From: Clostridium minihomine
GTDB lineage: Bacteria > Bacillota > Clostridia > Oscillospirales > Acutalibacteraceae
Direction: 5' to 3'
Length of the DNA stretch: 64,000 nucleotides
NCBI RefSeq assembly: GCF_900240385.1
Contig: NZ_OEQH01000002.1
Span: 384,488-448,487 of the forward strand
The number at the start of each line of letters is the position of its first letter. Position 1 is the stretch's first letter. The notes beneath the pieces are model-generated. The model saw only the letters and a program-made list of their open reading frames with translations, did no database searches and had not been told where the DNA came from. Made by a program: the position numbers and the translations under genes. Shown piece after piece: positions 18,963 through 32,987 of the stretch.

Positions 18963-19436
18963 CTAACGCAAAGCAAAATAAGTGTATTGACTGTAAGATT
19001 TATTCAGGTTTAGATAAAGCCCTCCCGCGGCAGGCGCCGCTTGGCTTTGGCGAAAATATATCTTATTTCCGCTGAGCCGAATTCCCGCAGTGGAGCCCAC
19101 ACGAGTGGCAATTCCGCTGTTCACCACGAGATAATTTTCTCTAGAGTTGTATTCTGTAAAGGGCTTTTCCTGTAAAAAAGCAACTACCACCTGTGGTTCA
19201 AAATCGAGTGTTATAAAGTCCTCTTCTGCTCCGCTTCCATCGCGGGACGAACACACGATACCATCTTCCAGACGAATTCGATCTGCCTGTGTCAGGTGCA
19301 GAATCGTATCTTTCAAATGATTTTCAATGACAGTGTCCAGAATCCGGTTATCTTCCACAAAGTCTTCTCGGCGCGGCTTATCGGTGTCTACCCAGCTATT
19401 TAGCCCAAGCCCGGGCGTTTTATTCGTTGACGGCAT
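18963..19436 (-). CDS. Phage tail fibre-like protein, short
   Basis: A 157-residue protein. The N-terminal TPGLGLNSWVDTDKPRREDF with VEDNRILDTVIENHL and LHLTQADRIRLEDG is the conserved baseplate-attachment region of many clostridial phage tail fibres. Normally a long repetitive fibre and receptor-binding part follows; here only about 90 residues of beta-rich sequence (VVVAFLQEKPFTEYNSRENYLVVNSG) with a Gly/Tyr end remain. It is therefore a minimal fibre, either cut short or adapted to a small particle. It is the last gene of the cluster, has a GGAGG site, and no separate chaperone gene follows. Confidence 0.75.
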   Translation of the reverse strand: MPSTNKTPGLGLNSWVDTDKPRREDFVEDNRILDTVIENHLKDTILHLTQADRIRLEDGIVCSSRDGSGAEEDFITLDFEPQVVVAFLQEKPFTEYNSRENYLVVNSGIATRVGSTAGIRLSGNKIYFRQSQAAPAAGGLYLNLNKSYSQYTYFALR

Positions 19437-19469
19437 GCCAGTTCCTCCTGATTCCAGTCATTTCCATCC

Positions 19470-20036
19470 CTATTCCAATTCTTGGATTTGCTCCCAGGTC
19501 AAGTCTGCCCGTGCAAGTTCCCCAAAGCTTTTTTTCGTTTGATGAAGATAGTCCCAAGTGATTTTTCCAAAATCAAAACTCAGTTCCAAATGAGCAGGCA
19601 AAAAACGAATGACGGAATCTATCAGTCTGGCCCGCTCCATTGTTTGATCAAGGAGCTCCACACAGGAAATATAAAGTTTTTGATCCCTGAAATTTTCAAA
19701 AATAGAAGTGCGGATTCCCACTGCCAGCAAAGCCCGCTCCATGCCCGCTTTTGTGTTATCGTTAACGGTAACAGCGTTTCTGTGCATCAGCATATTCCGC
19801 CGATGGTTTAACGAAAGATCCCTTCGTTCTGACCCAAAGGCCAGCTCCCGCATGGCAAGCCCCAGTTCCCGAGCCGTGGGCAAAAAAGCCTCTTGCAAAA
19901 GCCTGTCTAGTTCTTCATAGACACAATCCAGCCCCTGTGCGGTAGCGGCCAGTTCTGCTTCTACAATCGTATTCCCGGTCAGCTGGTACAATCCCATGGG
20001 CCGAAGTTTTCGCACCATCGAATCCAGTGCCCGCAT
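19470..20036 (-). CDS. Phage tail protein, XkdU/DUF2313 (Mu gp48) family
   Basis: A 188-residue baseplate wedge-associated protein. The N-terminal helical part (AELAATAQGLDCVYEELDRLLQEAFLPTA...GLAMRELAFG) and the following RRNMLMHRNAV section correspond to the DUF2313/Mu gp48 group that links baseplate J to the fibres. Its gene follows baseplate J with one base between, the standard order. The C-terminus (HLELSFDFGKITWDYLHQTKKSF) is also typical (YLHQ, W). Function assignment rests on order and overall pattern. Confidence 0.75.
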   Translation of the reverse strand: MRALDSMVRKLRPMGLYQLTGNTIVEAELAATAQGLDCVYEELDRLLQEAFLPTARELGLAMRELAFGSERRDLSLNHRRNMLMHRNAVTVNDNTKAGMERALLAVGIRTSIFENFRDQKLYISCVELLDQTMERARLIDSVIRFLPAHLELSFDFGKITWDYLHQTKKSFGELARADLTWEQIQELE

Positions 20037-20037
20037 G

Positions 20038-21111
20038 CTACACTACACTCCCCATCAATTGTACATAAACGGGATCCGCCACCGCCAACTGTGAAATATC
20101 CATTTTTTTATCTTTGGTCAGCCCTCCGTCAAACCGATAATTCCGCACCATTCCGGTGTCCAGAATACGCTTGCCCAAATGCACCAAAATTACCGATTCC
20201 CCCACAGAAAGCAAGTCAAAATATCTTTGTATTTCTTGCAGAACCTGCTCTGTAGCAGCAGAAAACGTGCACCCCTGAGCAGGCTCGATATAAAGGGATA
20301 AAGGCACCGCCACCAGTTCTGCCGCCTGAACGGTAACCGCCACATTGATTTCTCGCAGGCGGTTCAGCTCCGCCTGAATCTGTACCAGCAAATCCTTTGG
20401 TGGTGCGGCTCCCTTGCCGGCCGCATACACAGTAACCGTACCGATTCCATCGGCTCGGGGCAAAACGCTGGCCGACTGAATCCCGTCATACTGCACCACA
20501 TAACTGCGGTAAAATTCCGCATTGGTTCCGTTTGGCACTACCTCATAGCTTTTCAGCAGGCGCTTGCGCAGTTCTTCATCGGTTTCCGCATCTGCTCCGC
20601 CTGAAAATGCCTGGGGATTGGTAACGGTTTCTATCCCGGCCGGCGGGGTCAGCAAAAAGGTAATGGTTCCAGCCGCCGCGTTAGAAACTCGCCCGCCCTC
20701 CTGCGCAGCGGCCGCAACCTGCACTATCCGTTCTCCGGCTGCCAGCACCGCATCCTCTTCTGTCACAAACCGAAAACAACTTTCCCCCGAAGCGGCACAA
20801 ACCGTTCCTTTGGGAATCGGCACTTCATAAGGCAATGGAACTGATCGGCCAAACGTCAGCATTCCGGCAGAAGGCACTGCGTCCTTGCGGGAAATTCCCC
20901 GCTGGGCGGCGTGCATCTCCAAATATTCCTGTTGTGCTGTCTGGGGGAACATCTGGTTTTTCAGCCACTCTGCCCCATGAAGCAACGAGTAGATTTCCCC
21001 AGCCAACACCTTGAGCCGAATTCCCAAATCTGACGCATCATCCGCATGAAATCCGGCCAGTTCCGAAAAGGTATTGTTCATTCGTTCCAGTATGGCATCG
21101 TAGCTTTCCAT
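20038..21111 (-). CDS. Baseplate J-like protein (XkdT/gpJ family)
   Basis: A 357-residue baseplate wedge component. It shows the family's features: the N-terminal helical stretch, PIPKGTVCAASG, then FSGGADAETDEELRKRLLKSY with the invariant GG-x-D-x-E-[ST]-DEE-L-R-x-R motif, and the NAEFYRSYVVQYDGIQSASVLPRADGIGTVTVYAAG section. The length matches XkdT (about 350). It sits between the gp25/gp46-like and DUF2313 genes as in PBSX and Mu. Baseplate J is a hallmark of contractile (myovirus-type) tails, which makes the missing sheath gene notable. Confidence 0.92.
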   Translation of the reverse strand: MESYDAILERMNNTFSELAGFHADDASDLGIRLKVLAGEIYSLLHGAEWLKNQMFPQTAQQEYLEMHAAQRGISRKDAVPSAGMLTFGRSVPLPYEVPIPKGTVCAASGESCFRFVTEEDAVLAAGERIVQVAAAAQEGGRVSNAAAGTITFLLTPPAGIETVTNPQAFSGGADAETDEELRKRLLKSYEVVPNGTNAEFYRSYVVQYDGIQSASVLPRADGIGTVTVYAAGKGAAPPKDLLVQIQAELNRLREINVAVTVQAAELVAVPLSLYIEPAQGCTFSAATEQVLQEIQRYFDLLSVGESVILVHLGKRILDTGMVRNYRFDGGLTKDKKMDISQLAVADPVYVQLMGSVV

Positions 21112-21112
21112 C

Positions 21113-21472
21113 TTATTCCCCCTTATTTTCCAGTTTTAGAGATATACTGCCCAATCCGTAAGGTGTCACCAATTCCACTTTTAAAAGGGCATGATTTTGA
21201 TCCACAAGATCACAGCGTACTTTTTCCACAGAAAGCTCCGTCATTTTAGCCAGCGCTTCTTCCGTCAGTTCCCGGGCTCTTGCGTTTAAATCGCTTCCGG
21301 ACAGTTTCAGCGTATGCAGCCTGCTGCCCAGCTGCGAATCATAAGAAAAACTTCCCTTCGGTACCGACAACCGTATTTTGGCCCGCTGCAGAAGCTCCTC
21401 TTTTGTGCTGACAGAAAAGGGCAGCCCATTCTGCCCCACGGCAAAGTCCCCCTGTTCCAGCTTTATGTCCAC
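21113..21472 (-). CDS. Baseplate wedge protein, XkdS/gp46-like (DUF2634/GPW_gp25 group)
   Basis: A 119-residue protein. The GSRLHTLKLSGSDLNARARELTEEALAKM section and the PKGSFSYDSQLGSRL segment match the lysozyme-like fold of the T4 gp25/Mu gp46/XkdS group, and the terminal strands (VEKVRCDLVDQNHALLKVELVTPYG) fit. It stands directly before baseplate J and overlaps the preceding spike-like gene by 10 bp. gp25-type proteins normally trigger sheath assembly around the tube, yet no sheath gene is present. Confidence 0.8.
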   Translation of the reverse strand: MDIKLEQGDFAVGQNGLPFSVSTKEELLQRAKIRLSVPKGSFSYDSQLGSRLHTLKLSGSDLNARARELTEEALAKMTELSVEKVRCDLVDQNHALLKVELVTPYGLGSISLKLENKGE

Positions 21473-21822
21473 TCCGTTTCCTCCTCAGCGGCAAAAGTCT
21501 TTCCGTTAATCACAACTTCTCCCGAATTTTTCAGACAAATCCTCGCGCCTCCGGCAGAAAAGAGCATCAGCTCGCCCGGTTCTAGCCCGGATTCCTCCAC
21601 AATAGTTCCGGCGCACACCGGTTTTTCCGCACCGCCAAGAATCACCGCCCGGGCTCCAGCCGGCGGAAGATAGGCGATTCCCCAGGGAGCCGCCAGCTCT
21701 AAATGGCGATATTCCTGTTCCCCCTGAACAGCAATCCGGGCACCTTGTCCTGCGGTTACCTGACCAGAGGCTACCGGATTTTCCGCCAAACGGTTCCCGG
21801 CTATTTTTCGTGAAATCCACAT
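21463..21822 (-). CDS. Baseplate assembly/spike protein, gpV/gp45-like
   Basis: A 119-residue beta-rich protein. An OB-like part (GARIAVQGEQEYRHLELAAPWGIAYLPPAGARAVIL) is followed by GTIVEESGLEPGELMLFSAGGARICLKNSGEVVINGK. The GE-x-x-LFS...G-x-x-I-x-L-x-x-x-GEVVINGK repeat is the trimeric beta-helix seen in Mu gp45 and P2 gpV spikes. A short protein of this sort would make the tip of the cell-puncturing device. No C-terminal metal-binding apex is evident. Confidence 0.75.
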   Translation of the reverse strand: MWISRKIAGNRLAENPVASGQVTAGQGARIAVQGEQEYRHLELAAPWGIAYLPPAGARAVILGGAEKPVCAGTIVEESGLEPGELMLFSAGGARICLKNSGEVVINGKTFAAEEETEWT

Positions 21823-21834
21823 GATAGTTCCTCC

Positions 21835-22764
21835 TTACGAATATGCGCGGCGCAAAATAACGGAACAAAACATTCCATCTGCATCCAAAATACGGTTTAC
21901 GCTCCAAATCTGAAGCCCTTCCTGCACGCCCAGATACGGGTTTTCCAGCCGTACATACATTCCGGGGCTTAGCCTTGGCCAGCCGGGAACCTGAAGAACC
22001 CATTCCCATGCCTTTTGGCGCGATCTTTGAAGAATCTGTTCGGCCCCGAGTCCGGCTGCGGAAAAAGCACTGAAACAACGGCGGCGCTGAACCCCATTGC
22101 GCATCGCCTCTGTGTCCGATACGCATCCCTCATAGTTTCCATTTCGAGCCGATTGCAATCTTATCTGGCTGATGCGCTCATAATTTTTTTGTTTTTTCGT
22201 AAAGGAACTATACGAAATTCCCTGCCCGGAATGAGAAAACAGTATTGTGTCCTGTCGATTCTCCGGGGTGACTGTCAGTACCTGATTTGGCCCTATCATA
22301 GGAACGGTGTTCCAAGCAAGGCGGCAAAAAAGTTCCAGCACCTGCCATTCACTCATCCCTTTTGTCACGGTCAATTCGCCAATTCTCTTCTGTCCGTCCG
22401 GCACCCGGTATTGTGTAAGACCGTAAGGGGCGGTATGGCGAGAAAAAATCGTAGAAAAAGGCGGAGAATAATAAGTTTGGGGCAAAGCTTGATTATCCAG
22501 CAAAAGGGCAGCCAAACTGCGTGCTGTCAGCCGAAGAACGGCTCCCTGTTCCGAAAATTGCTCCGTCTGCTCATCCACAATTCCATAAAATATAGTTTTA
22601 CCATTTTGCTCCACATGCAGCCGAAACAAAGGGGGTAGTTTTTGCCACGGGAATTCCCCCGTTAAATCATCGGCGGGCGCATCCACCGCCTGACTAATCC
22701 GCACGGCAATGGGCCTCCCCAATAAAATGCGCATCCCCTGAGGGGTAATCCCTTCAAATTTCAT
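21835..22764 (-). CDS. Tail hub protein, XkdQ/gpD-like
   Basis: A 309-residue protein. The pattern GRPIAVRISQAVDAPADDLTGEFPWQKLP (a strand, then a short acidic loop) and RLHVEQNGKTIFYGIVDEQTEQFSEQGAVLRLTARSLAALLLDNQA is that of the P2 gpD/Mu gp44/XkdQ hub family (RS-x-A-x-L-L-D-N). The C-terminal strand GMYVRLENPYLGVQEGLQIWSVNRILDADG is also typical. The start is ATG 22764, overlapping the LysM gene's stop as ATGA; upstream in-frame codons have no ribosome-binding site. It would form the trimeric hub holding the spike. Confidence 0.8.
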   Translation of the reverse strand: MKFEGITPQGMRILLGRPIAVRISQAVDAPADDLTGEFPWQKLPPLFRLHVEQNGKTIFYGIVDEQTEQFSEQGAVLRLTARSLAALLLDNQALPQTYYSPPFSTIFSRHTAPYGLTQYRVPDGQKRIGELTVTKGMSEWQVLELFCRLAWNTVPMIGPNQVLTVTPENRQDTILFSHSGQGISYSSFTKKQKNYERISQIRLQSARNGNYEGCVSDTEAMRNGVQRRRCFSAFSAAGLGAEQILQRSRQKAWEWVLQVPGWPRLSPGMYVRLENPYLGVQEGLQIWSVNRILDADGMFCSVILRRAYS

Positions 22765-23285
22765 GAAATTACCACCTTTTGCCCCTCTGTTAAATAATTT
22801 GGCCATCGAATCATGGGGTTTTGCTTTAAAAGAGCTTCCACTGTGGTGGAATACGCGGAGGCAATTTGCCACAAATTATCGCCTTCCCGGCACTCATAAA
22901 TTTGCCCCGAAACTGATTGGGATGTAATATCGGTCTTGCCGTCTTCCCAAAACACAAAATGGTATCGCACCAAATCAGGCTCCGGATTTCCCATCATTTG
23001 CAAAGAAACAAACCGGGCGAAAAAGGGCAAAACATTCGGCAAAGACAGCACTGCACAACTGGTTTTTTCCAGATGAGAAGAAAGGTGCTGAAATTGCTGA
23101 ATACAGTCTGAACCGTAAAATTCCCCCTCTCCTTCCACCACCCGTTTTTGTACCCCGTAATCCTGCATCACACTTCCGGAAAAGGGCATTGAAAGTTCCC
23201 TAATATTCCGTTTTAGGGAAATCGTCAATTTCTCCGGATTATGGGGCCAGGTATACTCCCCATATTTCATCGGCAAGAGCTTCAT
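22761..23285 (-). CDS. LysM-domain tail protein, XkdP/gpX-like
   Basis: A 174-residue protein. The N-terminal part (about 1-125) begins PMKYGEYTWPHNPEKLTISLKRN, the tube-binding domain of XkdP-type proteins; the LysM domain fills about 127-174 (YECREGDNLWQIASAYSTTVEALLKQNPMI). Such proteins join the tail tube end to the hub. In PBSX the tape-measure gene lies directly upstream; here the upstream gene is a 45-residue ORF. Its ATG overlaps that ORF's stop (ATGA). Confidence 0.85.
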   Translation of the reverse strand: MKLLPMKYGEYTWPHNPEKLTISLKRNIRELSMPFSGSVMQDYGVQKRVVEGEGEFYGSDCIQQFQHLSSHLEKTSCAVLSLPNVLPFFARFVSLQMMGNPEPDLVRYHFVFWEDGKTDITSQSVSGQIYECREGDNLWQIASAYSTTVEALLKQNPMIRWPNYLTEGQKVVIS

Positions 23286-23419
23286 AACAGCTCCTCCTCT
23301 AAAATCAGGTGGGGATACCGCCGATAATCCTGCTCCAACAATTCAGACAACCGTTCTGCCGCCAGTGCATCTCGAACCAGCGAGGCATTCCATTTTGGAA
23401 TTTCTGGTTTTTGTTCCAT
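23282..23419 (-). CDS. 45-residue protein in the tape-measure position
   Basis: A 45-residue acidic protein (MEQKPEIPKWNASLVRDAL, then RLSELLEQDYRRYPHLI, ending EEELL) with a good GGAGG site. It overlaps the LysM gene by 4 bp and starts 3 bp after the tube-like gene, so it is part of the translationally coupled chain. In PBSX-type clusters this is where the tail-assembly chaperone and the long tape measure are encoded. It might be a shrunken chaperone or an adaptor; I recognise no family. The 79-residue extension of the frame to 23521 is rejected because it has no ribosome-binding site and overlaps the tube gene. Confidence 0.6.
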   Translation of the reverse strand: MEQKPEIPKWNASLVRDALAAERLSELLEQDYRRYPHLILEEELL

Positions 23420-23421
23420 TC

Positions 23422-23805
23422 CTATTCCTCCCGCACCCGTTTTTTGGCGGTTATCACAGCCCGCTCCGCCAGCACACCATCCCCCGGTTCTGCCAGCTCT
23501 TCCAGCTCTTCCCACTCGCATCCGCTATAAGTGGTTCTTACACCGTCCTGCACCGCAACCAGCCGAAAGTTACTCATGCCGTAAAGAGATGTTTGGGCTG
23601 CGCCTTCCCCACACAGACTTAGCTGCCGAAGCTCCAGCCGATATATGCTTGGACGTTCCAAAAAGGCCACGGGTTCCGCCTCCCCAAAAGCCCGTATCGC
23701 TCGCCGTTCCCGCACACAGCGGCATGTTACTTTTTGCGCAAAAGCCAAACGAATTCCATTCATCTCTATAAATACGCTTTGTCTGCGGGGAATAAAAATT
23801 TCCAT
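23422..23805 (-). CDS. Tail tube-like structural protein
   Basis: A 127-residue protein. The pattern FIEMNGIRLAFAQKVTCRCV, then RAIRAFGEAEPVAFLERPSIYRLELRQLSL, and the end FRLVAVQDGVRTTYSGCEWEEL, is like short tail tube proteins of clostridial prophages: NG-x-x-[LV]-A, ...AFGEAEPV..., YSGCEW. Placement after the connector genes and before the LysM gene agrees with XkdM. It may form a short tube, or only a ring if there is no tape measure. The identification is by pattern and position and is moderate. Confidence 0.6.
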   Translation of the reverse strand: MEIFIPRRQSVFIEMNGIRLAFAQKVTCRCVRERRAIRAFGEAEPVAFLERPSIYRLELRQLSLCGEGAAQTSLYGMSNFRLVAVQDGVRTTYSGCEWEELEELAEPGDGVLAERAVITAKKRVREE

Positions 23806-23806
23806 T

Positions 23807-24220
23807 TTACTTCCCGCTTTCCCGGCAGTATCCTGTCATACCCACTTGACTTTCCATTCGGAACGTCCCCGTTACTTCGGAATATTCCACCTTACCACAA
23901 GAGATGGTTTGCAGGCACAGTCCATTTTCGCCGAACAGTAATGCATCGCTGATTCGCGAAAAAGCATCCACACAGGCATTGGAGCCGTATTCTCTTGGCG
24001 CAGAGATCCAAATCCGAACTGTTAAATCCGCTCGGCGCAAAGAGCTGTCTAAAGAAGCCGGTGCAAACCGCACGGGGGAAATCTTTAAAAAAGCACTTAC
24101 CCCTGCGCTCAACCTTCCCCTGCGTTTTTCCCCGCCCAGTTCAAACCGGATATCCCCAAGGGATTCTTCCGATTGCAGCTTGTGCAGCAGCTGCTGTTCC
24201 AATTGATCAAATTCCGTCAT
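23807..24220 (-). CDS. Tail-completion/terminator-like protein
   Basis: A 137-residue protein that starts MTEFDQLEQQLLHKLQS and has a basic middle (KRRGRLSAGVSAFLKIS) and beta strands (LTVRIWISAPREYGSNACVDAF). Its size and position, after two connector genes and before the tube gene, suit the tail-terminator/head-tail joining protein (XkdI/XkdJ position). It overlaps the previous gene by 14 bp. Sequence similarity to a named family is not evident to me, so the call is positional. Confidence 0.55.
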   Translation of the reverse strand: MTEFDQLEQQLLHKLQSEESLGDIRFELGGEKRRGRLSAGVSAFLKISPVRFAPASLDSSLRRADLTVRIWISAPREYGSNACVDAFSRISDALLFGENGLCLQTISCGKVEYSEVTGTFRMESQVGMTGYCRESGK

Positions 24221-24563
24221 CTATTTCCTCCTTTGGCATTTCCCTGAGAACTGCCCATACATATAAAAGTTGATTTTGCATCCAATATCCCCGGGAACGG
24301 ATCACCATGTAATCGCCGTCATCCTGACTAACCACCGCATTTTTCATCTGATCCAAACGGCAGTCGGCCGGGCCCAAATAAAAGAAATGAGAATTGTCAT
24401 AATATCCTTCCGGCAGCCAAACATCTTCGGGATACGCCTTATGTTTTACGCCCATTGCCTGTATCAAAGCATAGGCACAAACCGGTTCCGCATCCCGGCA
24501 CCGCACCATCGTCTTTGCTCCGTATTGCCGAAGCATGCGCCGAACAAATTCTTTCTGGTTCAT
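24207..24563 (-). CDS. Head closure-like protein
   Basis: A 118-residue protein, MNQKEFVRRMLRQYGAKTMV, then LPEGYYDNSHFFYLGPADCRLD and DGDYMVIRSRGYWMQNQLLYVWAVL. It is rich in beta strands and aromatic residues, and lies where head-closure proteins (SPP1 gp16/XkdI-type) are found. It starts at ATG 24563 overlapping the stop of the connector gene (ATGA). The call is positional; the segment DYMVIRSRGYW, a strand with a conserved aromatic, agrees with that family. Confidence 0.55.
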   Translation of the reverse strand: MNQKEFVRRMLRQYGAKTMVRCRDAEPVCAYALIQAMGVKHKAYPEDVWLPEGYYDNSHFFYLGPADCRLDQMKNAVVSQDDGDYMVIRSRGYWMQNQLLYVWAVLREMPKEEIDDGI

Positions 24564-24913
24564 GAGCGCACCTGATAAAACGAAAAGGTATCATCCCGAA
24601 GATACGGCACGGCGGCACGGTAAGAATCCAGCCAAAGCTGTTTTGCCGCCCTGATTCCTCCAGAATCCTTTGTGATTTTAATTTCCCCGGCAGAAAAACT
24701 GCTTTCCGGCCCACAGGACTGAAACAAAGAGTAACGATAAAAAGCCAAGGCAGCACCGGCAGCATTCAAAAGGCTCTCCCCCCGGTCGGTATATCTTGCT
24801 TTGGCAGACAGCTCTTCCATTGCCTCCTGACAAAGCCCCTGCCAAAGAAGGGATTCTTCCCCAGAAAGCCCGGCCAGCTGCGCAAAACGCTCCAGAATTT
24901 TTTCCTGACTCAT
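24560..24913 (-). CDS. Head-tail connector-like protein
   Basis: A 117-residue, mainly helical protein: ILERFAQLAGLSGEESLLWQGLCQEAMEELSAKAR, then ESLLNAAGAALAFYRYSLFQS and IRAAKQLWLDSYRAA. The helical bundle, the A-x-A-x-A-x-Y-R-Y segment and the position directly after the capsid gene fit the XkdH/gp6-like connector that docks under the portal. It has a good GGAGAGG site and a 22-bp gap from the capsid gene. Confidence 0.65.
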   Translation of the reverse strand: MSQEKILERFAQLAGLSGEESLLWQGLCQEAMEELSAKARYTDRGESLLNAAGAALAFYRYSLFQSCGPESSFSAGEIKITKDSGGIRAAKQLWLDSYRAAVPYLRDDTFSFYQVRS

Positions 24914-24935
24914 CGCCTTCCCTCTCCTTCATTCT

Positions 24936-25946
24936 TTATATTTCGGAATAGCAAACCGCGCGCCCGGCCCCGGCAAAAATTTTTGCAAAGCCTGCAATGG
25001 TGCTGATAGAGGCTCTTTCCAGCTGACGGTCAATCAGTTTGTCCGAATCCGTAATAATATCCCCGGCCTGCACCATTTCCAAAGCACAGTTTTTGTCCAG
25101 ACCAATCAGGCAGTTCCCAGACAAAGACGGCACATGAAGCAGATTGGCACCCAAAGGGGTTGCCAGTTTTCCGGTTCCCTGAAAATTTAGTCCTGCCGCG
25201 GAATCCTGAAATTCTTTCAGGGTAAGAATATCTTCCATGGCAGGAGTAGAAGCCAGAATCGTATTTAGCTCATAGGGCTGAAGATTGCTCCACAGGCTGA
25301 CCATATCCCGATAGGATAAGCCTGTGTCGAGTTCCGTTACCGGTGTGGGGTTGTCATTTCCATCACCTTCCAAAAGAACCTGAACCGCGTCTTCCAGTTG
25401 GGCGCGGGCAATATAAGCGCCAATTTGCCGCAGGGTAACCGTAAACAAATCCAACTTTTGAAACCGAAGTGCTTCATAAGAGGCCACCAGCATTCGGCCG
25501 CGTTTTTTCAGGCACACCAGGTTTTCCTGCGTTTTAATCACCGTGCGGGGAATTTCCGCTCCCTCTGCCACCGGCATCAATTCCTTCTCTTTCGGTGAAG
25601 GATCCGAAGTGATGGTGCGATAATCCATGGAATTGATTTTAGTGACCGTGGCCACAATGGCGGGCAGCAAATCGGTTCGTTCCATCCCCTGACGCACCGC
25701 CCGAGTCACATATTCGGGGAATAAAGCGGCACTGTCGCTGGTTTGAAAGAATTTTTCCACCGGATCCGACCCCGGCCCTCCCACACGAATGTCAAACCGT
25801 TTCAGCTGACGCTGATAAGCATCCAGCCCGGCCAAAGCAGTCCCTTCGTAATTTTCGGAAGGATCCAATTCCTCCAATCGCTGGGCAAAGCCCTTACCGT
25901 TCCCATACATGCCTTTTTCCAGCTTCAAAGAATCATAATAAGCCAT
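24936..25946 (-). CDS. Phage major capsid protein (XkdG-like)
   Basis: A 336-residue capsid subunit. The N-terminal RLEELDPSENYEGTALAGLDAYQRQLKRFDIRV is the typical delta-domain start. The core AALFPEYVTRAVRQGMERTDLLPAIVATVTKI and the NLVCLKKRGRMLVASYEALRFQKLDLFTVTLRQIGAYIARAQLEDAVQVLL helix, with RTITSDPS, match capsids of the PBSX/XkdG group (HK97 fold). It lies after the decoration protein in the usual order. Size and composition are normal with no sign of decay. Confidence 0.88.
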   Translation of the reverse strand: MAYYDSLKLEKGMYGNGKGFAQRLEELDPSENYEGTALAGLDAYQRQLKRFDIRVGGPGSDPVEKFFQTSDSAALFPEYVTRAVRQGMERTDLLPAIVATVTKINSMDYRTITSDPSPKEKELMPVAEGAEIPRTVIKTQENLVCLKKRGRMLVASYEALRFQKLDLFTVTLRQIGAYIARAQLEDAVQVLLEGDGNDNPTPVTELDTGLSYRDMVSLWSNLQPYELNTILASTPAMEDILTLKEFQDSAAGLNFQGTGKLATPLGANLLHVPSLSGNCLIGLDKNCALEMVQAGDIITDSDKLIDRQLERASISTIAGFAKIFAGAGRAVCYSEI

Positions 25947-25964
25947 GTCTTTTTCCTCCCCTGA

Positions 25965-26306
25965 TTAAAGAATCACGCCGCAAAGCGCATTGGCAGTGTC
26001 TACATCCACCACCAGCAAAGAGCGCCCTGCTGCATCTGATTTGATTTTTCCGCTTCCCGCCCCGGCCAGTGTTTGGTAACCCACTGCCGGGGCTGTGCCG
26101 GAATAAGGCAGCCTTACATACCCGGCCAACTGAATGGCGGCAAAGCCTTCTCTAACATTCACTGCTACACCGCAAAAGTTTTTCCCCGCTTCACAGGGTG
26201 ACACCAAGCCGTTTTGGGTCACCTGTACCGGCATGCGGGCCGTTACCCCATCCGTGGCCTCAAAGGTTGCCGTTTTTTCTCCATATCCGCCAAATGATAC
26301 TTCCAT
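25965..26306 (-). CDS. Head decoration/DUF2190-like protein
   Basis: A 113-residue beta-rich, Gly/Ala-rich protein: SFGGYGEKTATFEATDGVTARMPVQVTQNGLVSPC, then GFAAIQLAGYVRLPYSGTAPAVGYQTLAGAGSGKI and LVVDVDTANALCGVIL. This is the pattern of small phage head decoration proteins and DUF2190, with G-x-A-x-x-Q-x-x-G-x-V and the terminal VV-D-x-D-x-x-x-x-x-x-G-x-x-L. The neighbours are the protease and the capsid gene, which is where such a protein is expected. It would stabilise the capsid surface. Confidence 0.75.
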   Translation of the reverse strand: MEVSFGGYGEKTATFEATDGVTARMPVQVTQNGLVSPCEAGKNFCGVAVNVREGFAAIQLAGYVRLPYSGTAPAVGYQTLAGAGSGKIKSDAAGRSLLVVDVDTANALCGVIL

Positions 26307-26331
26307 GTTTTTTCCCCTTTTCTACTTTTGA

Positions 26332-27324
26332 TTAAATGCGGAACATCTCGTTTCCACCCCTTGGCAGTTCACCCTTTTCCGGGGCCAGCTGCGGCCGAAG
26401 CGGAAGCACCTTATCCACTTGTTTTTGAAAGGCCTTCTCAAAATCCAGCAAATCCTCCAGACTCATGCTCTCGGCTGCACGCCGCATTGCTTCCGGTGAA
26501 ATTCCTGTTTTGGCCAGCCCACACAGGCGCACTACACGATTACAAACTTTTTCCCGATACATCTGCCCCGTTTCTGCCAACTGCTCTAACTCTTCCATTC
26601 GTTTTTCCAATTGCCGCGCCTGACTGCCGGAAAGGATCACTTGATCTTCCGCCTGCCGCAATGCCTTTTTTAACTCCTCCATATTGTCCTCCTCCTTTTG
26701 GGGCAAAAATGCTTTGATAACCCCCGCCGCCCGCTGGGCAGGAACCGCCACAAACGACCATTCATAGGCGTCCCGGGGCTCATCCAGAACGGTACAGCAA
26801 ATTTGTTCCTGCCCAGCCTGTTGATACATTTTTCCTTTTCTATGTTCGCAGCTTTTTTGGCTTCGATCCATCCCGCAAACCGAACAGCTCGAAATTCCCA
26901 CTGCACATCCCACACTCACTTCTTTTTTAATTCCGGACTCCAATTCCAAAATTAAATCGGCATTTTTTTGGATTTTAGGCAGATACGCTCTGGCTGTCAG
27001 CCGGGTATACGGTTCCCCGGCCTGCGTCATTTTGCCCTCCACCGTTTCCACCTGAGTGGAATAAATTCGGGCAGTTTGGTCACCGCTTTTCATACTGTGG
27101 TCAAAAATGCCGGTCTTTCCCAAGAAAAGTTGACCGAGCTTATGAAGCGCTGGAATCGTAAACCGCTCAAAATCTCGATCCACCTCGTTGTCACACAGCA
27201 CTACCGAAAACACATAAATTTCCTCCGGAAGAAAGGTGCGTCTGGTGTAACAGTTAATCTTCTCCATTTCTTCCGGTGAGGCAAAACCTCCCGATTCTCC
27301 CTTATAAACATAACCATCCCTCAT
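26332..27324 (-). CDS. XkdF-like prohead protease with scaffold-like C-terminus
   Basis: A 330-residue protein. Residues 31-190 form a protease core like HK97/U35 prohead proteases: EEIYVFSVVLCDNEVDRDFERF, GIFDHSMKSG with candidate catalytic His76, GIKKEVSVGCAV with candidate nucleophile Ser137, and YEWSFVAVPAQRA. Inside the core is a Cys/His cluster (C147, C150, C159, H161: CSVC...SCEH), a likely zinc knuckle also seen in XkdF relatives. Residues about 205-330 are charged and coiled (EELKKALRQAEDQ...RMEELEQLAE), as expected of a scaffold. The start ATG 27324 overlaps the portal stop and follows AAAAGGAG; the longer frame to 27585 is rejected. Confidence 0.8.
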   Translation of the reverse strand: MRDGYVYKGESGGFASPEEMEKINCYTRRTFLPEEIYVFSVVLCDNEVDRDFERFTIPALHKLGQLFLGKTGIFDHSMKSGDQTARIYSTQVETVEGKMTQAGEPYTRLTARAYLPKIQKNADLILELESGIKKEVSVGCAVGISSCSVCGMDRSQKSCEHRKGKMYQQAGQEQICCTVLDEPRDAYEWSFVAVPAQRAAGVIKAFLPQKEEDNMEELKKALRQAEDQVILSGSQARQLEKRMEELEQLAETGQMYREKVCNRVVRLCGLAKTGISPEAMRRAAESMSLEDLLDFEKAFQKQVDKVLPLRPQLAPEKGELPRGGNEMFRI

Positions 27325-28484
27325 GCTCGCGGCTCCTTTTCCTTTTGAATTTCCCATTCCATCTTTTCGGCCTGGGCGTTTTTCAGCCGGGCTTCTGCCA
27401 AAATCACCATATCCTGCAAGCTGATATCGTCCCACAGAATTTCCACTTTCTCTGGGTACCCGTTCATACATAGCCACATGCGGCAAATTTTCTGAATAAC
27501 CGGATCCAACAAACGGCGATAACTTTCCAATTCGCTGGTCAGCAAATCCGATTGCTGAGAAGACATCCTTTCGGTGGATGACCATGACAACCCCAAAAGA
27601 AAAGGAGGAATCCCCAGTTTTGCCACAATCTGTTCCAGCAGCTGGCGCACGGGGATTTCGCTGTCCAAAATTTGATTGTCCGCCCCAATCACCTGAATCC
27701 GAACATCGCCTACCGCCACAAAATCACTGACCCCGGTGCCGGGCTGCATGGCACGACTCCACTGTTCGGCAATTTGCCGGGCTCGTTCCCCGGCCCAGGC
27801 TCGGTCCCCTTCTCCATTTGGTTTATAGGTAACGGCAAAACGGGTATTTCCCACCCTGTCCCAATTCACGCCAATCACATGATATATTTTCAAAAGCACA
27901 TTCCCCAAAAAAGGCAGCCCCCGCAGCAAAGAAACCCCCTTCACCTGGCCAGGTTCCGGGTTCAGTGCCGTAAACAGAATCAAGTCCGGATATCGAACCG
28001 ATTCTGCCTCTCCGGCTCCGGTTCTGAGACAAACCTGAACATCAAAGGGAGTATCCCCCTGCCGCAGTTCCAGATCCTCTAAATTAGCATTGTACAGTCC
28101 GGCAATACTTGTCCCATCCGAAAGCGGAACCATCTCCCCAACGGCAGTTCCATACATCAGAAGCTGATCTAAATAGGTATTTAGAAAGCTTTGAATTCCC
28201 GTTTGAGCAGCATTGACCTGCACATAACGCAAAAAACTTTCCAGTTCCTTTTGCGCCAGAACATTGGGGCACGCCACCTGAAAGGAACCGATCAGCCGCG
28301 TGGTTTTTTCCAACGCGGCAGCCACCATGGGTACTGCTTCCCGCAAAGCGGTATACAGCCTTTGCTCGTTTCCCACCAGCGGAACTCGCCTTTCCAGTTC
28401 CCACCCCACCTGCTGTTCCGGGCGCAGAGCCGTCTGCACCACGGGGTCGGCTGCCGGCCGTTTTGTTTTAAACCAACCCATCAT
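27321..28484 (-). CDS. Phage portal protein (XkdE-like)
   Basis: A 387-residue portal subunit. The order is normal: N-terminal ALREAVPMVAAALEKTTRLIGSF, the wing segment YVQVNAAQTGIQSFLNTYLDQLLMYGTAVGEMV, then GVSLLRGLPFLGNVLLKIYHVIGVNWDRVGNTRFAVTYK, and the long clip/stem section ending with LGIPPFLLGLSWSSTERMSSQQSDLL. The motif LG-[IV]-PPF-[LM]-[LI]-G-x-x-x-x-[ST]-[ST]-E is highly conserved in SPP1/HK97-type portals. It overlaps the terminase large gene by 17 bp. It would drive DNA into the capsid. Confidence 0.88.
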   Translation of the reverse strand: MMGWFKTKRPAADPVVQTALRPEQQVGWELERRVPLVGNEQRLYTALREAVPMVAAALEKTTRLIGSFQVACPNVLAQKELESFLRYVQVNAAQTGIQSFLNTYLDQLLMYGTAVGEMVPLSDGTSIAGLYNANLEDLELRQGDTPFDVQVCLRTGAGEAESVRYPDLILFTALNPEPGQVKGVSLLRGLPFLGNVLLKIYHVIGVNWDRVGNTRFAVTYKPNGEGDRAWAGERARQIAEQWSRAMQPGTGVSDFVAVGDVRIQVIGADNQILDSEIPVRQLLEQIVAKLGIPPFLLGLSWSSTERMSSQQSDLLTSELESYRRLLDPVIQKICRMWLCMNGYPEKVEILWDDISLQDMVILAEARLKNAQAEKMEWEIQKEKEPRA

Positions 28485-29742
28485 ACTCTCCCATCCGGCG
28501 CGGAGCCGCTATCGCAAAACAATCCCCCGCGTCCTGCTGTAATATCGTCGCAACAAAATAGCGGATATCATCCATGGCATGGTCGTTTTCTTTTACCGGC
28601 GCGTCCCGCGTCAAATCGGCGTTCCAGCGGTAAAGAGAAAATTCCCGCATCGCATCGATACACGTGTCACAAATACAGACATCCCCTTGTTTCAAGGCAA
28701 CCCCCACCAGCCGAATCCCGTCCAGCACGTCGTTATTGGCTGGAACCACCCGATATTTTCCATGGCGGCCGATCACTGCCATAAAGCTGGCGGCAGAAGG
28801 ATCTGCCACCACACAATCAATGTTCCTGCCATCAATCAGCTGTTCCAGCCCGGTGTAATGTTCCTCGTCTGTTCGCTGCAATCCCTCGCGGCGAGAATCG
28901 TAATAATACTCTTCCAAACGGTACCAGCAGCCATTTTGTTTTCCCCACAGCCCAAAGGAAGAAGGATTTGCCGTTCCATAATCGCAAGAAACCACAAACC
29001 GCTCAAAATCCCCTTTGGGCATCGGGCAAAATCGCTCAGCCGTCATAAACGGATACACCAAGCCCTGAGCGGCCACCCATTTTCCCAGCACAAAACGCTG
29101 ATAGAAGGTTCCGGAATAAAGATCCCGGTATCGATCCAGCACCTGGCGGGACAAAGAAGGATTATCTTCCATCCGAAAATGTAGATACAAGGCATTTTTT
29201 CGCTTTGGATCTCGAATCCATTCCTGATAAAACCAATGGCCCGGATGTTCCGGATTGCAGTTAAACCAAAAGGCCGCACCTTCCACCGAACATCGGGCCA
29301 AAGCCTGCTCCACAAAAGAGCGGGGCATCAAAGCCACCTCGTCAAACAACACCCCAGCCAAAGTCATTCCCTGAATCAAAGCGGAAGAGGATTCATCTTT
29401 CCCTCCAAATAAATAAAAACGATTCGTGTACTGTCCTGCCGAAACTTCCAAAAGGTTCTCTGTCAAGCGAAAGGTACAGTCAAATCCATTGTCCTTTAAA
29501 ATCGGCAGCATAGGGGTAACCAAATTTCGTTTGACCGATCGAATGGTTTTTCCACACAAGGCAAAAGACTGCCCTTGAAATCGATAAAAAGACCAAGCAA
29601 TAAAAGAAATGCTCAGGCAAAGGGTTTTTCCGCTTCGAACCGCTCCGTCACAAATAACTGCATTGCAATGCTCATAAGGGCTGCCTTTGCACCACCAGCT
29701 CAAGGCCTGAAGCTGCTTTTGAGAAAAAGAATGAAATCCCAC
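28468..29742 (-). CDS. Phage terminase large subunit (XtmB-like)
   Basis: A 424-residue ATPase-nuclease. The ATPase domain has the adenine motif near its start (FSQKQLQALSWWCKGSPYEH), Walker A GAVRSGKTLCLS, Walker B GVLFDEVALMP with the Glu, and the coupling motif FWFNCNPEHPGHWF. The nuclease domain follows with VVSCDYGTANPSSFGLW (first Asp), YYYDSRREG, DCVVADPSAASF and the late HAMDDIRYFVATIL Asp pair. The start is GTG 29742, 7 bp after GGAGG. All catalytic residues are present, so packaging should be possible in principle. Confidence 0.93.
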   Translation of the reverse strand: MGFHSFSQKQLQALSWWCKGSPYEHCNAVICDGAVRSGKTLCLSISFIAWSFYRFQGQSFALCGKTIRSVKRNLVTPMLPILKDNGFDCTFRLTENLLEVSAGQYTNRFYLFGGKDESSSALIQGMTLAGVLFDEVALMPRSFVEQALARCSVEGAAFWFNCNPEHPGHWFYQEWIRDPKRKNALYLHFRMEDNPSLSRQVLDRYRDLYSGTFYQRFVLGKWVAAQGLVYPFMTAERFCPMPKGDFERFVVSCDYGTANPSSFGLWGKQNGCWYRLEEYYYDSRREGLQRTDEEHYTGLEQLIDGRNIDCVVADPSAASFMAVIGRHGKYRVVPANNDVLDGIRLVGVALKQGDVCICDTCIDAMREFSLYRWNADLTRDAPVKENDHAMDDIRYFVATILQQDAGDCFAIAAPRRMGEYDGLV

Positions 29743-29744
29743 CG

Positions 29745-30065
29745 TCAGTCCTCCTTCGGATCTGCCGAGTCAAAACACCGGACACTTTGCTCCAAAGCAC
29801 GGTAAAATTCCCCTAGCCCGCCAGTCTGTTCATCACTGATTTGCTCCAAACACTGCAGTGCTTTGATCCGATCAAAAAACCTTATCTCCATGCCGCCACC
29901 CTTGGGCCGTTTGATTTCTGCCACATTAAACAAATCCATATTTTCAATTTCCGTCACATCCATGTTTTCGCAGAACATCAGGCGCACCGCGTCAGAAATT
30001 CCACCGAAAGCTAACTTATCATAGCCCCGCATGATTTTTCGTTTGGATCTGCTTTGGTTTGCCAT
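29745..30065 (-). CDS. Terminase small subunit-like protein
   Basis: A 106-residue basic protein before terminase large. The tract RKIMRGYDKLAFGGISDAVRLMF and the following DMDLFNVAEIKRPKGGGMEIRFFDRIKALQCLEQI is reminiscent of XtmA-type small subunits (the second part, F-[FD]-R-x-K-A-L-x-x-L-x-x-I, is very typical) but it lacks the usual full N-terminal HTH, so it is shorter than the 150-260 residues of normal examples. It has an AAAGGAGG site and the frame is intact. A small subunit missing its DNA-binding end could mean headful packaging without a specific pac site (inference). Confidence 0.7.
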   Translation of the reverse strand: MANQSRSKRKIMRGYDKLAFGGISDAVRLMFCENMDVTEIENMDLFNVAEIKRPKGGGMEIRFFDRIKALQCLEQISDEQTGGLGEFYRALEQSVRCFDSADPKED

Positions 30066-30213: not shown

Positions 30214-30246
30214 AAAAAGAAAAAAACTTTCCCTAAAAAGGGAAAG
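30214..30246 (-). terminator. Terminator or leader hairpin upstream of the phage-like operon
   Basis: CTTTCCC (30227-30233) pairs with GGGAAAG (30240-30246); on the minus strand it is followed by a long T-rich tract (30226-30214). No minus-strand gene lies upstream that would need it, because the next gene is on the plus strand. It would therefore either block antisense transcription or act as a leader terminator keeping the phage-like operon silent. Confidence 0.5.
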
Positions 30247-30362
30247 CTTTGAAAAAGAAAGAGAAAAAACAGAAAAAATAAGTTTTTATTTAACTTTATT
30301 GTAATTATATAAGTTTTTAATACATTTAGTATAAATGATTTTTTAATTTGAAAAAGTTTGAA

Positions 30363-30813: not shown

Positions 30814-31670
30814 ACTCTATTTTAGAAATAAAAAACTTATCAAAAGAATTCCCCACTTTCTCTTTGAACAAGATTAGTTTCTCCCTTCCCGGCGGCTGCA
30901 TTATGGGCATGGTGGGGGAAACAGGGGCTGGAAAAACCACAACAATTAAGCTAATTCTAAATGAGCTGCATGCAGACAGCGGAGAAATCAAAATTTTCGG
31001 ATTGGATCTCAAAGAACATGAGCGCAAAATCAAGGAACAAATCGGTGTGGTATTTGATGACGCCTATTTCCCCTCTGAATTTAACGCCATACATGTCAAC
31101 GATATGCTCAGCCATTTTTTCGCCAATTGGGATAAAGACTTATATGAAACTTATCTGCGCGAGTTTCAACTGCCCAAAGAGCAAAAAATCAAAGAATTTT
31201 CTAAAGGCATGCGCATGAAGCTTTCCCTTGCGGCCGCACTCTCTCATCATCCCAAATTTTTAATTCTGGATGAAGCTACAGGGGGCTTGGATCCGGTCGC
31301 TCGAAACGAAATTTTGGATCTTTTATTAAACTTTGTACAGGATGAGGAACATTCGATTTTATTCTCTTCTCATCTTACCGCTGACCTGGAACGCATATCT
31401 GACTACATGACTTACATCCACAACGGCTCTATTCTATTCAGTGAATCCAAGATGGAACTGCTGGAGTCGTATGGCCTTGTGAAATGCACGCAAGAGGAAC
31501 TGGAAAAAATAAACCCGGACGAGATTCTGGGAATCCGTGAAAATTTGTTTGGATGCGAAGCTTTGGTAAAAAACCGGGCAGATATGCTCAAACAGTACCC
31601 CCATCTGGTTATTGACCCCGCTTCTATTGAAGAAATTATGATCTTCTGGGGCAGGAGGCAGAAAAAATGA
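30810..31670 (+). CDS. ABC transporter ATP-binding protein
   Basis: A 286-residue ABC ATPase of the drug/lantibiotic-export type (YtrB-like). Walker A is GETGAGKTT, the Q-loop region is IGVVFDDAYFPSEF (the usual Gln is replaced by Asp), the signature FSKGMRMKLSLA is a relaxed form of LSGGQ, Walker B is LILDEATGGLD and the switch His lies in FSSH. The C-terminal extension (about 215-286) is normal for this group. It sits between the YtrA regulator and two permeases, so it powers their transport. Confidence 0.92.
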   Translation: MNSILEIKNLSKEFPTFSLNKISFSLPGGCIMGMVGETGAGKTTTIKLILNELHADSGEIKIFGLDLKEHERKIKEQIGVVFDDAYFPSEFNAIHVNDMLSHFFANWDKDLYETYLREFQLPKEQKIKEFSKGMRMKLSLAAALSHHPKFLILDEATGGLDPVARNEILDLLLNFVQDEEHSILFSSHLTADLERISDYMTYIHNGSILFSESKMELLESYGLVKCTQEELEKINPDEILGIRENLFGCEALVKNRADMLKQYPHLVIDPASIEEIMIFWGRRQKK

Positions 31671-32299
31671 AGGGATTACTTTATAAAGATCTGATGAATT
31701 CCAAAGGCCCTCTCATCGGTACTTTCTTTTACTTTCTGGTTTTTGCTATCTTTGCAATTCCAAAACATGCCGATGGCAGAAGCCTGCCGGGCACACTATT
31801 TTCTGTTTTCTTGTTTTACAGTTCCTTAGCGTTAGCACACAACTCTTTTCAACAGGATGAGCAGAACAAGTGGAATGTTTATGCTCTTTCTCTCCCCATC
31901 GATAAAAAACTATTGATCCAAAGTAAATACCTTTTTCTGACCGCCTATTTACTGTTGGGCCATGCTTTGGCACTTGGCCTTACGGCGATTCAGCCGTCTA
32001 TCGGTTCTGAAATACTCCTGGTACAAATAATGCTCATCGCTCGAACCTTCCTGTTTCTCAGCATGTTTCTTCCTTTGATTTATCGGTTCGGTTCCCGAAA
32101 TGCAACCGTATTAATTGTATGTACTTTCTTCGCCCTGGGCTTACTAAAACTGGCAATCAATGATTCTGAAATTTTAAATTTGTTAACACAAAATCAGCAA
32201 ACCATAGTTTTTTATTGCTGGTGTGCCGGTTGTGTAATCCTCTATTGTGCATCCTATCATTTTTCTTATAAAATGCTCGAAAAAGGCGATGTGCATTAG
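31667..32299 (+). CDS. ABC-2 type permease
   Basis: A 210-residue protein with six hydrophobic segments, starting MKGLLYKDLMNSKGPLIGTF. The motif FQQDEQNKWNVYALSLPIDKKLLIQSKY, between the second and third segments, is the hallmark of the ABC-2 permease group paired with YtrA regulators. Its start overlaps the ATPase gene's stop (ATGA). It is paralogous to the following gene over its whole length. Substrate unknown; relatives act in bacitracin-type stress. Confidence 0.85.
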   Translation: MKGLLYKDLMNSKGPLIGTFFYFLVFAIFAIPKHADGRSLPGTLFSVFLFYSSLALAHNSFQQDEQNKWNVYALSLPIDKKLLIQSKYLFLTAYLLLGHALALGLTAIQPSIGSEILLVQIMLIARTFLFLSMFLPLIYRFGSRNATVLIVCTFFALGLLKLAINDSEILNLLTQNQQTIVFYCWCAGCVILYCASYHFSYKMLEKGDVH

Positions 32300-32372: not shown

Positions 32373-32987
32373 ATGAAAGGGTTATTCTATAAGGATGTGA
32401 AGAACTCCCGATGGGCACTGCTCATAACAACACTTCTCCTAATTATTGACACCTTGATGTGTCCCTTCTTTATAAATTTTGTCGCTATGAATGGCTTGTT
32501 TATCACCAAATGGATCTACTGGTTTTTATTTTTATTGGTTTACACCTCATTCCAGCACGATGAGGCCAGCAAATGGAACCTTTATGCTCTTTCGTTGCCG
32601 GTAACGAAAAAAATGTTGGTACAAAGCAAATATATTCTTTTTACCCTCATCCTTTTTGTATTCAATATTTTTGCAATTTTGGTTTCCTATGGTTTCGGCA
32701 ATTTGACCTTCGATATTGCTTGGGCACACTTGATGCTCATTGCCCTGTCGATGTTGATAATCGGCCTCTTTATTCCAATGATTTATCGCCTGGGCACCCA
32801 AAAAGCTTTTCTGTTTCTGATCCTCCTGATTTTATTGGCAAATGGAGTCTGTTTTGTCTTTGAGGAAAATAGATTTTATCTGATATATAAAAATTCGATC
32901 AACGTTGTTTTCTGCCTGTTGAGCCTATTTTCCTATTACTATTCCTATCGATTCTCCTGCCAGCTTATGGAACAAAAAGACTTCTGA
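32373..32987 (+). CDS. ABC-2 type permease, paralogue
   Basis: A 204-residue six-helix protein clearly paralogous to its neighbour: MKGLFYKDVKNSRWALLIT, FQHDEASKWNLYALSLPVTKKMLVQSKY and PMIYRLGTQKA align with the equivalents of the first permease. The two probably form a heterodimeric channel for the single ATPase. It lies 73 bp downstream, with AAGGAGCG as ribosome-binding site, and is followed after about 160 bp by a terminator. Confidence 0.85.
   Translation: MKGLFYKDVKNSRWALLITTLLLIIDTLMCPFFINFVAMNGLFITKWIYWFLFLLVYTSFQHDEASKWNLYALSLPVTKKMLVQSKYILFTLILFVFNIFAILVSYGFGNLTFDIAWAHLMLIALSMLIIGLFIPMIYRLGTQKAFLFLILLILLANGVCFVFEENRFYLIYKNSINVVFCLLSLFSYYYSYRFSCQLMEQKDF

Follow-up and report, generated by a model that had tools for sequence, protein, structure and literature searches.

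A cluster of 18 minus-strand genes at positions 18963-30065 of the window (the whole stretch of Clostridium minihomine DNA analysed here, 64,000 nucleotides long) probably encodes a domesticated system resembling a gene transfer agent (GTA), a viriform whose particle would have a small head loaded with host DNA and a non-contractile, very short tail. About 75 other species carry the same genes in unchanged order, a recurrence that places the cluster far beyond chance. Gene content, conservation, co-descent with the host, selection, intact terminase motifs and the folds of the tube and capsid proteins were obtained directly from the comparisons below, and from these we infer the host DNA cargo, the shape of the particle, its delivery and its control.

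Gene content of the cluster

The 18 coupled open reading frames lie between hflX and a GntR/ABC operon. Most of them have a ribosome-binding site and their ends overlap or almost abut. They code for a terminase and portal, for a protease and an HK97-fold capsid protein, and for connectors, a tail-tube protein and an entire baseplate; the list below also gives the leader upstream of terS.

30223..30250, minus strand: leader stem-loop and T-tract upstream of terS, CTTTCCCT-TTTT-AGGGAAAG, TTTTTTTC
29745..30065, minus strand: TerS, 106 aa, lacking the N-terminal part that in many relatives matches the Terminase_2 helix-turn-helix
28468..29742, minus strand: TerL, large terminase, ATPase and nuclease motifs intact
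27321..28484, minus strand: portal (phrog_30703, E=1e-133)
26332..27324, minus strand: prohead protease-like protein (phrog_16951; start at 27324 or 27267), putative function from its place between portal and capsid
25965..26306, minus strand: decoration-like virion structural protein (phrog_4588)
24936..25946, minus strand: major capsid protein, HK97 fold (PF25209, phrog_3922, structure model)
24560..24913, minus strand: putative head-tail adaptor, by position; conserved, no family match
24207..24563, minus strand: putative head closure protein, by position; conserved, no family match
23807..24220, minus strand: putative tail completion/terminator protein, by position; conserved, no family match
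23422..23805, minus strand: tail tube protein g9 (phrog_27038; fold of the AF2 model)
23282..23419, minus strand: g8, 45 aa, the smallest gene, at the position of a tail-assembly chaperone or tape measure; recognised in 46 loci
22761..23285, minus strand: LysM tail-hub protein, XkdP-like (Pfam/PHROGs)
21835..22764, minus strand: baseplate hub, XkdQ-like (phrog_177)
21463..21822, minus strand: XkdR-like/spike-like protein (phrog_25991; weak Mu gp45 match)
21113..21472, minus strand: gp25/GP46 wedge, "sheath initiator" family (Pfam/PHROGs)
20038..21111, minus strand: Baseplate J wedge (PF04865, E=4e-47)
19470..20036, minus strand: Gp48/gpI wedge (Pfam/PHROGs)
18963..19436, minus strand: distal tail/fibre-like protein, first 41 aa similar to phrog_33092; recognised in 45 loci

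Pfam and PHROGs matches were obtained for TerL, portal, capsid (PF25209), the phrog_4588 protein, LysM, hub, gp25/GP46 wedge, Baseplate_J and Gp48, while the protease and TerS were called from conserved families and position and the three connector genes from position and conservation. Together with the list of open reading frames these matches agree with the original prediction of 18 open, tightly coupled minus-strand genes with packaging, capsid and baseplate functions. That prediction had overlooked a tail-tube fold at 23422-23805. The protein g9 has no named family and was identified as a tube from its fold: its AlphaFold model (pLDDT 87) had its best PDB matches among tail tube and neck proteins, namely those of phage 812, Mu and diffocin. 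On this model, a tail tube gene is still present in the sheathless cluster. The structure model of the window capsid has the HK97 fold.

Within the sensitivity of the profiles, which limits all negative family searches, neither sheath nor tape-measure families were detected in the cluster by Pfam and PHROGs. Integrase, replication and lysis genes were likewise not found in the cluster, nor an integrase in its flanks, and a repeat search around it gave no long direct repeats or att sites. The absence of sheath, tape measure, integrase, lysis genes and att repeats, as originally described, was thus upheld by these searches, and the cluster lacks the integrase, replication genes and att sites of a complete prophage. 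There were no tRNA genes within the 64-kb window. An apparent tandem duplication was seen downstream of the GntR/ABC genes, where 104 nt at 31839-31942 and 32542-32645 are 70% identical and lie inside adjacent similar open reading frames of 210 aa (31667-32299) and 204 aa (32373-32987).

Distribution and gene order

The capsid gene occurs almost always as one copy per genome. Of 398 genomes from the host family, which in GTDB is probably Acutalibacteraceae, 228 had it. A draw of 394 genomes from the order gave 71 with the gene, 36 of these coming from five other families, and in one of those families (f26) it was present in 83 of 178 genomes. Among 216 genomes drawn from across the class there was one match outside the order, and it was distant. 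This order-wide inheritance was not foreseen in the original prediction. The cluster is missing from a large minority of genomes. The nearest named relatives are Faecalispora sporosphaeroides and F. jeddahensis.

In 80 loci and 40 regions from other genomes the order was TerS, TerL, portal, protease, decoration, capsid, three connectors, tube, small gene, LysM, hub, R, gp25, J, gpI and fibre. The recurrent neighbours were host genes (hflX in 16 loci, others sporulation- or germination-like) and no integrase family recurred among them. The location was constant within a clade and differed between clades. Five loci of family f26 (L139-L143) were reduced to terminase, portal, protease, capsid, adaptor and hub, with no J or gp25 detected nearby, and their remaining tail genes may lie elsewhere. 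The one distant capsid relative outside the order (G1176:C20:6136-7212, L211) adjoins protease-like and decoration-like genes; it could belong to an autonomous phage relative and serve as a potential outgroup.

Vertical inheritance and purifying selection

At the sequence level a GTA is characterised by phage-derived particle genes, full endogenisation and co-descent with the host, and at the level of experiment by packaging of mostly random host DNA, a head too small for the whole locus, and DNA delivery (PMC9662315). The particle genes of the present cluster derive from tailed phages, and the cluster is fully endogenised: it lies in the chromosome beside hflX or another fixed set of neighbours, and no integrase or att sites were found. 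An element tree built from TerL, portal, protease and capsid for 30 genomes of five families was compared with the rpoB tree, and 19 of 27 splits were common to both, where 2000 permutations gave 0.2 shared splits on average and never more than 3. This congruence with the host tree indicated vertical inheritance.

In five species pairs, every gene had a pairwise dN/dS within 0.02-0.42 (0.05-0.09 for hflX). The argument is carried by the closer pairs, since in the Faecalispora pair dS had reached saturation for some of the genes. Values nowhere near 1 bear out the proposal that the preserved frames reflect selection. The Walker A and B residues and the nuclease aspartates of TerL were invariant in 110-112 loci. 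The originally proposed status of a domesticated or GTA-like system was strengthened by rpoB congruence, by purifying selection in the five species pairs and by these invariant catalytic residues.

A defective prophage remnant that persists by accident would account for the lack of integrase, replication and lysis genes, but a dN/dS of 0.02-0.42 in every gene tested, invariant catalytic residues and a tree that agrees with that of the host in five families make its probability close to negligible. A recent or decaying prophage was ruled out by the dN/dS values, co-descent with the host and the intact motifs, and no full prophage was found at the same locus in relatives, as a recent deletion would have required. 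Selection on the cluster genes would also fit killing or another function.

Sheathed and sheathless forms

The distance between the capsid and LysM genes is conserved (median 1634 nt; 1651 nt in the window), which leaves no space for a sheath or tape measure in the host family. The sheathless layout was found in most of the host family, and sister families have sheathed versions: approximately 1050 extra bases holding a sheath gene were present in family f14, in parts of family f26, in f2, and in two loci of the host family (L061 and L077). The sheath was identified by PF04984 and PF17482 in the four loci tested, and profile matches were obtained in 18 loci. In the sheathed loci the space of the tape measure was filled by small open reading frames only. 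The sheathless layout described at the outset stands for this cluster, but relatives in other families carry a sheath and the layout is derived. On a tree of 101 loci the presence of the sheath switches at least six times, which we read as repeated loss, the tree itself being indifferent between gain and loss.

A genome-wide search for the PF04984 sheath gave no match in 12 of 15 cluster-bearing genomes of the family, single-contig genomes included, whereas in the sheathed families the match falls inside the cluster. A sheath supplied in trans was thus ruled out for these 12 genomes. These observations bear on the proposal that the particle is a killer of the PBSX type, in which DNA is packaged and the particle acts as a bacteriocin against relatives and not as a transfer vehicle. 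The PBSX-like order with LysM, hub, J and Gp48 and the sheathed versions in sister families speak for it, as does PBSX itself, which packages about 13 kb of host DNA and has been described as non-injecting (PMC12946183). However, killing driven by contraction would not be available without a sheath, which is missing in the 12 genomes, and killing would not need conserved terminase catalysis; we regard this alternative as rather unlikely.

The cluster lacks the tail sheath of a PBSX-like contractile particle, and the sole sheath match in the genome falls in a separate cluster (G000:C9:77919-90867, L200). This second cluster is headless. It encodes a contractile tail, with sheath, tube, a TMP-like protein of 504 aa, baseplate and fibres, as well as amidase and holin; from its genes it would be a tailocin-like element, and its good conservation does not extend beyond the genus. 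Since it lacks a head but has holin and amidase genes, the two loci might form one machine in which it gives sheath, tape measure and lysis to the head encoded in the window, and in FpGTA II the baseplate and lysis genes are likewise apart from the head operon (PMC12946183). However, the sheath of the second cluster was well matched in the same genus only (G000, G051) and more weakly in 15 more of 150 family genomes, whereas the head cluster is present in most family genomes. In addition, a complete baseplate is already encoded in the window cluster. With the two clusters not co-conserved, the tailocin was rejected as a second half and the two-locus arrangement is very unlikely. For a GTA-like particle encoded by the window cluster, the absence of sheath and tape measure leads us to expect a very short, non-contractile tail.

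Leader upstream of terS

Of 109 loci, 68 have a stem-loop followed by T-tracts on the sense strand upstream of terS, and 5 have one on the antisense strand. In one clade the half-sites were TTGCAT and ATGCAA, with 42 occurrences in the upstream zone of 112 loci compared with 0.25 expected; other clades had different bases with the pairing kept, the pair counts being no independent evidence of structure given that the stems were chosen for pairing. The stem-loop was also present in 31 of 64 loci with a divergent upstream gene, and is thus not merely the terminator of the neighbour. No Rfam match was obtained at the leader in six loci, and SOS (DinR-like) boxes upstream of terS occurred in 2 of 109 loci, the same as the rate in shuffled sequence. 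The leader could be an attenuator or an operator, and its conservation adds weight to the GTA-like reading.

Lone capsid copies in phages and virus databases

The capsid gene was found on 379 IMG/VR contigs, which would be expected of a satellite or active phage moving between lineages. However, many of these contigs are the cluster itself, a GenBank entry named "Bacteriophage sp." (MT835508.1) is bacterial chromosome with rpoA and secY, and the element tree tracks rpoB, making such mobility extremely improbable. Within L222-L363 many IMG/VR contigs are, like MT835508.1 (L302), copies of the chromosomal element filed as viruses in public databases.

One 34.5-kb contig (IMGVR_UViG_3300032038_000365, L301) is that of a genuine phage, which has a terminase, portal and capsid of its own and, in addition, a lone copy of the GTA-like capsid (L301:10001-10981). 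A second lone copy (L161:9551-10480, in G217:C72) adjoins NMN-transporter, NadR-like and RNA-ligase genes. The two copies lie in unrelated phage settings and are nearest to different GTA lineages, and both lack the same conserved segment, corresponding to residues 123-133 of the window capsid protein; no loss of this segment was seen in other capsids among 273 entries checked. Further searches for orphan capsids again returned L301 only. In the capsid model residues 123-133 lie in the extended loop preceding the long spine helix; we read this loop as the E-loop and the segment as its presumed tip.

Two cases constitute a lead only, though a strong one, and suggest a poisoned subunit made by phages. 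It is possible, though doubtful, that a capsid without the E-loop tip co-assembles with the capsids of the particle and poisons them as a dominant-negative protein, an anti-GTA weapon that would imply a particle active enough to be a phage target. The existence of phage-borne, E-loop-deleted copies suggests that the particle matters to phages, and it too adds weight to the GTA-like reading.

Discussion

Few GTAs have been defined genetically and in Gram-positive bacteria only PBSX and FpGTA have been described (PMC12946183). FpGTA I and II of Faecalibacterium, the closest system described so far, have heads of about 40 nm with 8.4-8.9 kb of random host DNA and are podovirus-like (PMC12946183, Nat Commun 2026). 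The window element resembles them in host order, in a small TerS/TerL/portal/MCP operon, in the lack of replication genes and in an expected podovirus-like shape, expected here from the genes, but differs in having the baseplate in the same operon and an order-wide distribution. The window TerL profile had no match in four genomes of genus code g235, taken as Faecalibacterium via the MAM protein leader peptide, and the MCP profile none in the g235 genomes tested, yet nearly half of the f26 genomes, which belong to the same family, match it. Loci L139-L143, which from gene order were candidates for an FpGTA I homologue, were dropped with both profiles empty in the Faecalibacterium-coded genomes. 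As far as the profiles reach, the window element is a lineage separate from FpGTA, with no detectable TerL or MCP homology, and may work in a similar manner.

PBSX of Bacillus subtilis is, like the proposed particle, a non-mobile DNA-packaging particle, and its gene order from terminase to baseplate is that of the window cluster. The latter differs in lacking a sheath, tape measure, adjacent lysis genes and a repressor, and in its vertical descent over several families. RcGTA and the Rhodogtaviriformidae share vertical co-descent with hosts, purifying selection and absence of autonomy genes, but occur in another phylum, whereas the window element has a PBSX-like baseplate set and sheathed sister forms. 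R-type tailocins and diffocins have homologues of the baseplate, tube and LysM proteins; in contrast to these, the window cluster retains head, portal and terminase and lacks the sheath.

The system probably originated from an ancestral PBSX-like contractile phage that became fixed in the chromosome, lost its autonomy and thereafter descended vertically. In some cells the operon would be expressed in response to a signal from the host at the terS leader, an HK97-type head would assemble, and the terminase would load non-selected host DNA. The absence of the helix-turn-helix from TerS in the window lineage fits packaging without a specific start site; many relatives retain this part and some of them could recognise a specific site. 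Adaptor proteins, together with a minimal tube and the baseplate, would then close the head, and lysis functions would have to come from elsewhere in the genome. In this lineage, with the sheath gone and no gene of tape-measure size, the particle would have a podovirus-like appearance and deliver DNA without contraction.

The lineage, known here from its genes, is inherited throughout an order of gut bacteria, and no earlier description was found in open-licence papers. Virus databases hold hundreds of copies of this chromosomal element labelled as viral. GTA-like packaging without an assigned operon has been reported for Onthomonas, CAG-115 and Ruminococcus callidus (4.6 kb) (PMC12946183), and a cluster of the window type is the natural first suspect in these cases. 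The presence of sheathed and sheathless forms within one inherited system makes the question of tail reduction testable.
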